Part shown: piece by piece, positions 49,354 to 54,369 of the stretch
Numbering within the stretch: the stretch's first letter is position 1
Layout: each line of letters begins with the position of its first letter
DNA from: Murinocardiopsis flavida
GTDB lineage: Bacteria > Actinomycetota > Actinomycetes > Streptosporangiales > Streptosporangiaceae
Direction: 5' to 3'
DNA: 64,000 nucleotides
Assembly: GCF_003014485.1 (NCBI RefSeq)
Contig: NZ_PYGA01000013.1
Span: 124,001-188,000 of the forward strand
Made by a program: the position numbers and the translations under genes
The notes under the pieces: model-generated
Databases searched by the model: none
What the model was told of the DNA's origin: nothing
The model's input: the letters and a program-made list of their open reading frames with translations, nothing else

Positions 49354-49874
49354 TGAGCGGAGTGGTGGAGCGGCACGGACACCGGGCGCGCGGCGCCTGG
49401 GCGCACCTGCTGCTGCTCGTCCCCCTGCTCCTCGGTGTCGCGGCCATGCACACGTTCGGGCATCCGCATGAACCCGGGCCCGCGCCGCAGGCGGCGGCCG
49501 CCGGAGCCCACTCCACCGGGCACGGTTCCGCGGCGTCCGTACACGGGTCCGACCGTGGTCCGGCGGCGTCCGTGCACGAGTCCGACCGTGGTCCGGCGGC
49601 GTCCGTGCACGAGTCCGGCGCCGATCACGGTTCCGCGGCGTCCGCGCATGGCACCGACGCCCGCGGCAGTGCGGAACCGCCGCCCATGGACCCCATGACG
49701 ATGTGCCTCGCCGTCGTCGGCCTCGCTGTCCTGCTGCTGGGCGCGGCGGCCACCGTCCTGCGCCTGCCCGCCCTGCGGCGCCGCCCGCCGGGCACCCGCC
49801 TGCGGACGGTGCTGCGCACCCTGCCGCCGCCCGCGCCGCCCTCACTCGCACGCCTTCAGGTGATGCGGGTCTAG
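49353..49874 (+). CDS. DUF6153 membrane protein
   Basis: About 173 residues: helix 1 at about 17-35 (HLLLLVPLLLGVAAMHTFGH), a His/Ser/Asp-rich loop with repeats of SVHESDRGPAA (about 55-95), a second helix (MTMCLAVVGLAVLLLGAAATVL) after PPPMDPMTM, and an Arg/Pro tail. Histidines and methionines may bind copper. The CsoR-like palindrome at its start and the DUF305 gene next to it suggest a copper-linked role. The tandem repeats of about 30 bp (49518-49640) encode the His-Glu-Ser repeats. Confidence 0.75.
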   Translation: MSGVVERHGHRARGAWAHLLLLVPLLLGVAAMHTFGHPHEPGPAPQAAAAGAHSTGHGSAASVHGSDRGPAASVHESDRGPAASVHESGADHGSAASAHGTDARGSAEPPPMDPMTMCLAVVGLAVLLLGAAATVLRLPALRRRPPGTRLRTVLRTLPPPAPPSLARLQVMRV

Positions 49875-49990
49875 ATGCCCGGCCGGGCGCTCGAACGCGC
49901 GCCCGGCGGCACCGACCCGTTCACCACAGACCGCGCCGCCCCGGACCCGTACCGTCCGGTCCGGACGCGTGCGCAGACAAGGAAGCGACC

Positions 49991-50704
49991 ATGAACAAGC
50001 GTGCTATTGTGCTGCTCTCCACCGCCATGGCGGGGACCCTGCTGCTCTCCGCCTGCGGGGGAGCCGCCGAGGACGACCCCGCGCCCGCGGCGGAGTCGAA
50101 GCAGTCGGCCCGGCACAACAAGGCCGACGTCGAGTTCGCGCAGATGATGATCCCGCACCACGAGCAGGCCGTGGAGATGGCCGAGCTGGCGGAGACCCGC
50201 GCCGGTGCCGACGTCCGCTCGCTGGCGAAGGAGATCGACAAGGCCCAGGGGCCGGAGATCAAGCAGCTCACCGGGATGCTGGAGTCCTGGGGTGAAGAGC
50301 CGCTGGAGTCGATGGACCACTCGATGGACGGCATGCTCACCGACGCGCAGATGACGGAGTTGGAGCAGGCCGACGGCGACGCCTTCGACAAGGCGTTCGT
50401 CGATTCGATGATCGAGCACCACGAGGGTGCGGTCGACATGGCGCAAAGCGAGCTCGACGACGGGGAGAACCCGGAGGCGAAGAAGCTCGCCGAGGACATC
50501 GTGTCCACCCAGAACGACGAGATCACCCGAATGCGCGAACTCCTCGGCGAATCCCCGACGGACGACGGCGGTTCGGGCGAGGGTTCCGGTGATTCCGGCG
50601 ATGGTTCCGGTGAGGGTTCCGGTGATTCCGGCGATGGTTCCGACGACGGCTCCGGTGATTCCGGCGATGGATCTGACGGCGGCTCCGGCCACGGCGGGCA
50701 CTGA
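49991..50704 (+). CDS. DUF305 lipoprotein, copper-associated
   Basis: About 237 residues. The signal peptide ends in the lipobox LLLSAC, then the DUF305 domain with two copies of the His-His motif: FAQMMIPHHEQAVEMAELA and FVDSMIEHHEGAVDMAQSEL. The C-terminus is a repeated SGDSGDGSGEG tail from a 30-bp repeat (about 50571-50690). DUF305 proteins occur near copper and metal resistance genes in actinomycetes. It follows DUF6153 by about 116 bp and precedes the CopB gene, so the three form a copper-response group. Confidence 0.88.
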   Translation: MNKRAIVLLSTAMAGTLLLSACGGAAEDDPAPAAESKQSARHNKADVEFAQMMIPHHEQAVEMAELAETRAGADVRSLAKEIDKAQGPEIKQLTGMLESWGEEPLESMDHSMDGMLTDAQMTELEQADGDAFDKAFVDSMIEHHEGAVDMAQSELDDGENPEAKKLAEDIVSTQNDEITRMRELLGESPTDDGGSGEGSGDSGDGSGEGSGDSGDGSDDGSGDSGDGSDGGSGHGGH

Positions 50705-51577: not shown

Positions 51578-51614
51578 TTGGATCGGGATGGACGAAGGCG
51601 CTGGAGGATCGGTT

Positions 51615-53822
51615 ATGGCGGACCACACAGGCGGCCACAAGGGCGGTGGTGTGCATGCGGAAAACGCGGGGCACGCCGAGCACGAGGGCGGCCAGACGGT
51701 CCATGGGGCCCCCGATGGCCACGAGGGTCATAGCGGGCACGCGGGCGACGGTGACCACAGCGGGCACGCGGGCCACGACGACCACAGCGGCCACGGCAGT
51801 CACGGCGGGCATGCCGACCACAGTGGGCACGGCGGCCACGGCGGGCATGCGGGCCATGGCGATCACGCCGCCATGTTCCGCACCCGCTTCTGGTGGAACC
51901 TCGCCCTCTCCATCCCCGTGGTCTTCACCAGCCACATGATCGCGGGATGGTTCGGCTACCACGTCCCCGGCGCGCTCACCTGGGTCGCACCCGTCCTCGG
52001 TGTCGTCGTGTTCGTGTACGGCGGCTGGCCGTTCCTCAGCGGGGCGGTCGGCGAACTCCGCTCCCGCGCCCCGGGCATGATGACGCTGGTGGCGCTCGCC
52101 ATCACGGTCGCGTTCGGCGCGAGCCTGCTGAGTACCTTCGGTGTCGTCGGCATGGCGCTGGACTTCTGGTGGGAGCTGGTGCTCCTCGTCGTCATCATGC
52201 TGCTGGGCCACTGGCTGGAGATGCGCGCGCTCGGGCAGGCGTCCGGCGCGCTGGAGGCACTGGCCGACCTGCTCCCCGACACCGCCGAACGCGTCACGGC
52301 CGACGGCGGCGTCGAACAGGCGCGGCTCGCCGACCTGAACGTCGGCGACACGGTCCTCGTCCGCTCGGGCGGCCGGGTCCCGGCCGACGGCACCGTCACC
52401 GAGGGGCGGGCCGCCGTCGACGAGTCGATGATCACCGGTGAGTCCCGCACCGTCACCCGCAGCGAGGGCGACCGGGTGGTCGCCGGCACCGTCGCCACCG
52501 ACTCCGCTCTGCGCGTCCGCGTCGACGCCACCGGCGACGACACCACCCTCGCCGGGATCCACCGCCTCGTGGCCGAGGCGCAGGAGTCGCGGTCCCGCGC
52601 CCAGGCGCTCGCCGACCGCGCCGCCGCGCTGCTGTTCTGGTTCGCTCTGGTCGCCGGGGCGATCACCTTCGCGGTCTGGTCGCTCATCGGGGACTTCACC
52701 TCCGCCGTCGAGCGGACCGTCACGGTCCTGGTCATCGCCTGCCCCCACGCCCTCGGCCTGGCGATCCCGCTGGTCATCGCCATCTCCACGTCGATGTCGG
52801 CACGCGCCGGGATCCTCGTCAAGGACCGCCTGGCCCTGGAGCGCATGCGCTCCGTCGACACCGTCCTGTTCGACAAGACCGGCACCCTGACCAAGGGCGC
52901 GCCCGTCGTTACCGAGTTCGCCGCCGCCGAGGCCAACGACGAGGACCGCGTCCTCGCCCTCGCGGGGGCAGTGGAGGCCGACTCCGAGCACCCGCTCGCG
53001 AAGGCCGTGGTCCGCGCGGCCCAGGAGCGGGGGGACGTCCCGCGCGCCACCGACTTCCGCTCCCTCACCGGGCGCGGCGTGCAGGCGCAGGTGGACGGCG
53101 CCCCGGTGTCCGTCGGCGGCCCCGCGCTCCTCGCCGACAACGGGCTGTCCGAACCCGCCGGGCTCGCACCCCGCATCCAGGACTGGCGGGACACCGGGGC
53201 GACCGTCCTGTACGTCATCAGCGGTGGCGGCGTCGCCGGGGTGCTGGCGCTCGCCGACGAGGTGCGCCCGGAGTCCGCAGAGGCGGTGCGCGACCTCCAG
53301 CAGCGGGGCGTGCGCGCCGCGATGGTCACGGGCGACGCCCGCAACGTCGCCGACTCCGTCGCCCAGCGGTTGGGCCTGGACGAGGTGTTCGCCGAGGTCC
53401 TGCCGGAGGAGAAGGACGGGGTCGTCCGCGACCTCCAGCAGCGGGGGCAGCGGGTCGCCATGGTCGGCGACGGGGTGAACGACGCTCCGGCGCTGGCACG
53501 GGCCGACGTGGGGATCGCGATCGGCGCCGGCACCGACGTCGCCATCGAGTCGGCCGGTGTTGTGCTGGCCTCCGACGACCCTCGCGGCGTGGTGTCGGTC
53601 CGGCTGCTGTCGGCCGCCGGGTACCGCAAGATGGTGCAGAACCTCGCCTGGGCCGCCGGGTACAACGTGCTGTCGGTGCCGCTGGCGGCCGGGGTGCTCG
53701 CCCCGATCGGGTTCATCCTGCCGCCCGCGGTGGGCGCCATCGTGATGAGCGTGTCGACCATCGTGGTGGCCCTCAACGCCCAGCTGCTCCGCCGGGTCGA
53801 CCTGACGCCGGGTCGGGACTGA
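51615..53822 (+). CDS. copB: Copper-exporting P1B-type ATPase, CopB type
   Basis: About 735 residues. A His/Gly/Asp-rich N-terminus (about 1-85, DHSGHGGHGGH type) replaces the usual Cys-x-x-Cys metal domains. The core is complete: actuator TGES (MITGESRTV), the membrane motif IACPHALGLAIP with CPH at 376-378 that marks CopB, DKTGT with phosphorylated D420, SEHPLAKAV and GDGVNDAPAL. CPH pumps are linked with Cu(II)/Ag export. The ATG at 51615 has GGAGG 7 bp ahead; an earlier in-frame ATG at 51588 is less likely. Under the CsoR-like operator at 51561. Confidence 0.93.
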   Translation: MADHTGGHKGGGVHAENAGHAEHEGGQTVHGAPDGHEGHSGHAGDGDHSGHAGHDDHSGHGSHGGHADHSGHGGHGGHAGHGDHAAMFRTRFWWNLALSIPVVFTSHMIAGWFGYHVPGALTWVAPVLGVVVFVYGGWPFLSGAVGELRSRAPGMMTLVALAITVAFGASLLSTFGVVGMALDFWWELVLLVVIMLLGHWLEMRALGQASGALEALADLLPDTAERVTADGGVEQARLADLNVGDTVLVRSGGRVPADGTVTEGRAAVDESMITGESRTVTRSEGDRVVAGTVATDSALRVRVDATGDDTTLAGIHRLVAEAQESRSRAQALADRAAALLFWFALVAGAITFAVWSLIGDFTSAVERTVTVLVIACPHALGLAIPLVIAISTSMSARAGILVKDRLALERMRSVDTVLFDKTGTLTKGAPVVTEFAAAEANDEDRVLALAGAVEADSEHPLAKAVVRAAQERGDVPRATDFRSLTGRGVQAQVDGAPVSVGGPALLADNGLSEPAGLAPRIQDWRDTGATVLYVISGGGVAGVLALADEVRPESAEAVRDLQQRGVRAAMVTGDARNVADSVAQRLGLDEVFAEVLPEEKDGVVRDLQQRGQRVAMVGDGVNDAPALARADVGIAIGAGTDVAIESAGVVLASDDPRGVVSVRLLSAAGYRKMVQNLAWAAGYNVLSVPLAAGVLAPIGFILPPAVGAIVMSVSTIVVALNAQLLRRVDLTPGRD

Positions 53823-53970
53823 CCGCGCGGCGGGGGCGGGGCGAGGCGGGGACGGAACGGTAATCGACGGGTGGGCGGCCGCAACGCGGGGCCGCCCGCT
53901 CCGTCGTCCGGCCTGCGGAACCGCGGACCGGACGAGGGAGGGGGAGTGGGCACGCCCGAGATCAAAGGTC

Positions 53971-54075
53971 GGCAAGGGTGCTTATATCAGGCGCTCTCTC
54001 CGATTGAGCTACACCAGACCGAAGCCGGGACGGGAATCGAACCCGCGATCTCCTGAGCCCGAAGTATCCCTCGCC
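53971..54075 (-). ncRNA. Circularly permuted tRNA-like RNA (candidate)
   Basis: On the minus strand, an outer stem GGCGAGGG/CCCTTGCC encloses, in order: stem strand TCAGG, a 5-base variable loop AGATC, a T arm GCGGG-TTCGATT-CCCGT, an acceptor-like stem CCCGGC-TTCG-GTCTGG closed by a UUCG loop, TGTA, a D arm GCTC-AATCGGAGA-GAGC, G, and the partner strand CCTGA. The T loop and the D loop GG are canonical, so the tRNA elbow could form, but 3' and 5' halves are in reversed order and the anticodon loop is split by an open internal loop. No U33 is at the expected place, so ordinary decoding is doubtful. The 13-bp direct repeat CCCGAGATCAAAG flanks it (53955-53967, 54112-54124). It is not a standard tRNA gene; permuted tRNA precursor, tRNA-like regulator, or relic of recombination are open. 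Confidence 0.6.
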
Positions 54076-54369
54076 TGCGCACCGGGCGCGCCGCGTTCAT
54101 GGGGTGCCCCTCCCGAGATCAAAGCCGACCACGGAGGGGTTTTCAGATGAATGAAGTATCCGAGGTCTTCGCACCGGGAGGCGCACTCCGCACGATAACC
54201 CGCCGCACGGGTACGGCGCACCCGTGTTTTCCGCGCGGAGGGGTTCGTGCGGGGCGGTCCCGCGTAGTGCGGTCCGCGCTGCCCGGACCGGCGTAGTGCG
54301 GGTCCGGGCAGCGCGAATTGGCGCAGTGCGGCCTTCGCGCAGCGGTGGGGCGGCAGGCGCCGCCCCACG

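Follow-up and report, generated by a model that had tools for sequence, protein, structure and literature searches.

A probable orphan pair of tandem Y RNAs, one with a permuted tRNA-like domain, in Murinocardiopsis flavida

What kind of RNA carries the two halves of a tRNA in reverse order? On the minus strand of the window (the whole stretch of 64,000 nucleotides analysed here, positions 124,001 to 188,000 of contig NZ_PYGA01000013.1 of Murinocardiopsis flavida), the T-arm half of a tRNA-like body comes before the D-arm half, and copies of a 13-bp repeat lie on both sides. A sequence-only reading saw in this a circularly permuted tRNA-like RNA, perhaps a decayed gene or a tRNA mimic. The observation is confirmed and the interpretation is partly supported: the topology is indeed permuted, and the suggestion of a mimic was right, the mimic being a Y RNA of the YrlA type. 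We put at about 85% the probability that the window holds two bacterial Y RNAs in tandem, a short one and one of the YrlA type, which most likely act as extra Y RNAs in trans. The YrlA-type RNA extends the known YrlA class by a new, orphan member, and this identity explains its permuted-tRNA look (features in Table 1).

The identification could be based on Rfam or on a model of the RNA's own relatives. At the gathering threshold, Rfam gave no match in the window. With an E-value threshold, the YrlA model (RF02553) matched positions 54074-53969 of the minus strand over its full length (E 3.4e-7), with a score of 38.8 bits where the gathering cut-off is 69 bits. DNA and YrlA searches of related genomes found many relatives, none above that cut-off, which was reached in 0 of 121 family genomes; the low score is therefore treated as a limit of the model, and the present cut-off misses Y RNAs across a whole actinobacterial family. 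Since the cut-off is missed, membership among the YrlA and bacterial Y RNAs rests on a second covariance model, R1, and on genomic linkage. R1 was built from an alignment of 37 relatives with the window copy left out, and its training copies were picked by DNA or YrlA similarity and not by closeness to the TROVE domain (see below). The consensus of this alignment comprises a terminal stem, an inner Y stem, a T-arm, an acceptor-like stem, and a D-arm, and 20 of its 35 pairs show compensatory changes. R1 matched the window RNA at 102.3 bits, through the non-tRNA flanks and covarying stems at both of its ends, and matched a second unit directly upstream; the next match had an E-value of 3.2. The match to a model that excludes it, these compensatory changes, and the exact spacing of the split stem (below) show that the observed arrangement exceeds what chance would give. 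When the window copy was aligned with four copies from its own genome (contig C3) and from genome G057, 94.9% of the pair cells were standard and 16 pairs had changed on both sides, and neither value was reached by any of 500 shuffles; the inner Y stem was fully paired in all five copies.

Table 1. Features of the Y RNA pair (positions in the window; basis of each call in the last column)
Feature	Positions	Strand	Basis and remarks
Short Y RNA, upstream unit of the tandem, no tRNA-like domain	54099..54187	-	R1 45.8 bits, E 2e-8; folding z -3.04; motif match
First 13-mer CTTTGATCTCGGG, 3' strand motif of short Y RNA	54112..54124	-	Sequence, motif match, R1
YrlA-type Y RNA with permuted tRNA-like domain	53942..54095	-	Extent is that of the model match; R1 102.3 bits, E 1.3e-20; RF02553 38.8 bits
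Terminal stem, 5' strand GGCGCGCCCG	54083..54092	-	Partner 53949-53958, 10 bp; read from sequence; covaries in relatives
Inner Y stem, 5' strand GGCGAGGG	54068..54075	-	Sequence and five-copy alignment; 8 bp with 3' strand, one G-U included
Split anticodon-like stem, 3' strand TCAGG	54052..54056	-	Fixed-spacing test, re-dealing control; 5 bp with CCTGA
T-arm GCGGG-TTCGATT-CCCGT	54030..54046	-	Sequence, R1 match
Acceptor-like hairpin, CCCGGC (54029-54024), UUCG loop, GTCTGG (54019-54014)	54014..54029	-	Sequence, R1 match; 5 of 6 paired, one mismatch; this copy's weakest part
D-arm GCTC-AATCGGAGA-GAGC	53993..54009	-	Sequence, R1 match
Split anticodon-like stem, 5' strand CCTGA	53987..53991	-	Fixed-spacing test
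Inner Y stem, 3' strand CCCTTGCC	53971..53978	-	Sequence and five-copy alignment
Second 13-mer CTTTGATCTCGGG, 3' strand motif of YrlA-type RNA	53955..53967	-	Sequence, motif match, R1
Terminal stem, 3' strand CGGGCGTGCC	53949..53958	-	Read from sequence; covaries in relatives

The long end-formed stem of a Y RNA is present in the window RNA as two stems that together make 18 bp and covary in relatives, and the T-, acceptor-like, and D-arms that it encloses stand in the permuted order that characterises YrlA. The elements named in the sequence-only reading are all there: the order of the halves, the exact pairing of TCAGG with CCTGA, the UUCG-capped acceptor-like stem with its single mismatch (its register is also shifted), the missing U33, and the likeness to a split anticodon loop, which is borne out by the exact tRNA spacing of the split stem. 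What was taken for an outer 8-bp stem is the inner Y stem; the 10-bp terminal stem beyond it had been missed, as had the short Y RNA upstream, which has the same flanking motifs as the YrlA-type unit. In an energy test, the short unit folded better than its own shuffles; the YrlA-type RNA alone was not significant (z -0.73), and its minimum-energy fold as a whole puts the tRNA-like arms in the wrong places. A search for a sigma-70-type promoter and a terminator at the locus gave no match, which is weak evidence because the group is GC-rich.

The involvement of the Ro60 system was examined via the TROVE domain (PF05731), the domain of Rsr/Ro60, in the 121 family genomes. TROVE was present in 51 of the 52 genomes with strong R1 matches (60 bits or more), and of 99 strong matches, 91 were no more than 8 kb away from it. 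In named actinobacteria and in viral contigs, the Y RNA matches at rsr loci form a cluster just upstream of rsr and in the same direction; in the window's own genome, an array on contig C3 runs short unit, YrlA, YrlA, and then directly rsr. This is the genome's only TROVE match. The window lies on another contig, C13, where the TROVE search gave no match, so its copy is not beside rsr. RtcB occurs in 109 of the 121 genomes and is hence uninformative (that of the window's genome is on contig C2, not beside rsr). The pair's neighbours are instead a P-type ATPase and an APH-family phosphotransferase. The ATPase (51588-53822, plus strand) ends 120 bp from the Y RNAs, converging on them, and has a long N-terminal stretch rich in His, Gly, and Asp (HAGHGDHSGH...) that probably binds metal. 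Elsewhere in the window, a reading frame at 49703-50704 (plus strand) has a MIPHHEQAVEMA-type stretch followed by a long Gly/Ser/Asp repeat tail (GDGSGDSGDGS) that continues to its end.

Seven other strong matches, in six further genomes, lie on contigs without TROVE; because some of these contigs are short, only those in G007, G006, G084, and G113 are clear orphans. The orphan copies have no common neighbour gene (MFS transporters, an IS605-type transposase, an HNH protein, and others were found), and no syntenic copy of the window pair was seen. Orphan Y RNAs with unrelated surroundings were located at L107:7540-7695, L108:7283-7564, L109:7275-7429 (with the IS605-type transposase nearby), and L110:7003-7135.

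A simple explanation of the permuted order would be that of a true circularly permuted tRNA gene whose transcript is processed to a working tRNA. Such a gene has a complete anticodon arm and tRNA ends from which a mature tRNA is made, and the window RNA has neither an anticodon nor CCA, only a 4-nt loop at the place of the tRNA ends. The permuted arms and the exact tRNA spacing of the split stem are what this explanation accounts for; a long covarying Y stem running through the anticodon loop, 55 matches making up an ordinary tRNA set in the genome, and relatives linked to rsr all speak against it and make it very improbable. The ordinary tRNA search called no tRNA in the window, and ARAGORN found no tmRNA there. 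Another explanation, still less probable, is that pieces of two unrelated tRNAs were joined by chance, or that a pair of tandem tRNAs left a relic here. It has in its favour that tandem tRNA genes, with their T-then-D order, do give weak YrlA matches (e.g., 33.6 bits at C7:83621 in the same genome). However, tandem tRNA genes are not the explanation for the window, because the R1 match runs through both non-tRNA flanks, and the covarying stems contradict it too; the possibility of chance-joined fragments, raised by the sequence-only reading as a potential refutation, is thereby contradicted. Confusion also occurs in the opposite direction: ARAGORN calls a tRNA in 53 of 286 rsr-linked Y RNA units, and in the record of Streptomyces phage Alone3, the interval annotated as tRNA-Ser(gct) (SEA_ALONE_36; L305:1774-1847) falls within a Y RNA unit, upstream of a gene for a Ro-like protein. 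Caution is thus needed with tRNA finders, which label some Y RNAs as tRNAs, even in public phage records. As for the 13-bp repeats, two identical copies 157 bp apart might suggest insertion or circle integration; but each of the tandem units has this 13-mer as its 3' end motif, the upstream copy falls within the short Y RNA, and units in other genomes end with the same motif (GATCTCGGG). The repeat is therefore the 3' strand common to two tandem Y RNAs and no insertion scar, and the chance that it marks an integration is minimal.

A serious rival to a probably functional old orphan accepts the identification: the pair might be a decaying array that lost its rsr, or a stray copy, and no longer work. 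This is suggested by the contig without a TROVE gene, by the imperfect acceptor-like stem, by the lack of any syntenic copy seen, and by the unrelated neighbours of orphans elsewhere. However, at about 75% identity to the copies of its own genome, the window copy has kept the Y stems, T-arm, D-arm, and split stem all paired, pairs have changed on both sides relative to those copies, and the short unit still folds well. We consider decay unlikely on balance, with a real share of the probability. The sub-cut-off Rfam score, the absence of an adjacent rsr, the imperfect acceptor-like stem, and, weakly, the lack of a promoter or terminator match count against the preferred explanation, that of a tandem pair of Y RNAs acting in trans.

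How the tRNA is mimicked can be seen from the relatives. A survey of 238 distinct Y RNA units with a T-arm revealed two designs. In the in-line design, found in 94 of the 238, a 7-nt loop is closed by a perfect 5-bp stem, and exactly 4 or 5 nt separate this hairpin from the T-stem that follows, as in tRNA; when the 3' strands were dealt anew, the mean number was 17 and the maximum 27. Although the loops were picked by the stem alone, U33 is present in 91 of the 94, C or U at position 32 in 93, and A38 in 91; A34 occurs in only one and stop anticodons in none, there are 26 different triplets, and 48 loops are identical to loops in the tRNAs of the window's genome, counts that are not independent because many sequences are related (60 of the 94 arms are distinct). 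The TTC of the TACTTC motif is here part of the anticodon stem. The in-line stem-loops of the relatives are anticodon arms, and they are the most interesting by-product of the analysis; no report of such arms in Y RNAs was found in the literature searched, which did not cover the main YrlA papers. The in-line design is absent from the window.

In the split design, the anticodon stem is divided across the Y stem, one nucleotide after the D-stem and five before the T-stem. Among the 67 units without an in-line arm, 42 have a split stem at exactly this tRNA spacing, and other spacings gave 0-3; in a slightly wider set, 44 of 94 were observed against a mean of 2.6 and a maximum of 8 when strands were dealt anew. 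This split design is that of the window RNA, which does lack U33.

Many rsr-linked Y RNAs (L145-L304), just upstream of rsr, have an in-line anticodon arm before the T-arm (e.g., L145:4811-4962, L148:4803-4955, and L172:4580-4728). Their anticodons correspond to Asn, Lys, Ser, Met, Pro, Asp, Glu, Arg, and others, and the triplet varies by species within Streptomyces and likewise within Nocardiopsis. Some array units (L148:4803-4955, L225:3645-3797, and L038) have Glu-like (GTCGTCTAGCGGCC) or Gln-like (GTGGTGTAA) D-arms, accompanied in a few cases by the matching Glu or Gln anticodon. Descent of the in-line arm from the cognate tRNA is unsupported: in a ranking against the tRNAs of one genome only, the cognate came top outside the loop in 10 of 73 cases, with about 6 expected by chance.

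The YrlA stem is known to tether Rsr, and its tRNA-like domain binds the exonuclease PNPase and is modified by tRNA enzymes (PMC8394870). In the window RNA, the two ends form a stem (terminal 10 bp plus inner 8 bp) that enters the tRNA-like body at the place of the anticodon loop, and because it enters there, the body runs T-arm, acceptor-like hairpin, D-arm. By analogy with the known system, the stem may bind the Ro60-like ring protein Rsr encoded on C3, and the body may dock partners such as PNPase or tRNA-modifying enzymes; the window pair would then most likely act in trans, as an additional source of Y RNAs for the Rsr that C3 encodes. On this basis, we infer a function for the pair.

A broader proposal, tentative and on the whole rather doubtful, is that the Y RNA arrays of actinobacteria form panels of permuted tRNA mimics in two designs. 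In one, as in the window, the Y stem leaves the body through a split anticodon loop; in the other, there is a whole anticodon arm whose triplet varies among related species, with U33 and A38 retained. Held on Rsr, with dispersed copies such as the window pair adding to them in trans, these mimics could serve as decoys for enzymes that cleave or modify the anticodon loops of tRNAs, or as sensors of such enzymes. Competitive inhibition of an anticodon nuclease has been proposed as a role, without being tested there (PMC7790460), and the decoy idea for the in-line arms is offered as a hypothesis only. The finding matters in that an apparent permuted tRNA is resolved as a Y RNA belonging to the Ro60 system, and in that complete anticodon arms in many Y RNAs lead to a directly testable question, whether such arms shield genuine tRNAs from anticodon nucleases or act as guides in RNA repair.

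Comparison with known systems places the window RNA as follows. Like tmRNA, it mimics part of a tRNA, but it has no visible tag reading frame or tRNA-type acceptor end. Like the circularly permuted tRNA genes of algae and archaea, it has the 3' half of the tRNA-like body before the 5' half; it differs from them in lacking an anticodon and CCA, in its 4-nt acceptor loop and its long Y stem, and its kind has a different partner gene and a different evolution. The sequence-only reading knew of no actinobacterial precedent for such a gene; Y RNAs, however, have been reported from Mycobacterium smegmatis (PMC4726728). The short unit resembles Y RNAs without a tRNA-like domain in having only a Y stem and motifs, in tandem with the YrlA-type unit, and was classed by these features within actinobacteria. 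With YrlA (RF02553; the structure of the Salmonella tRNA-like domain is 6CU1, named in PMC8394870), the window RNA shares the end-formed stem followed by T-arm, acceptor-like stem, and D-arm; the family lies beside rsr, whereas the window copy does not and scores below the Rfam cut-off. To this plan it adds a conserved terminal stem with the GGTGCGCAGG and GATCTCGGG motifs and a TACTTC motif.
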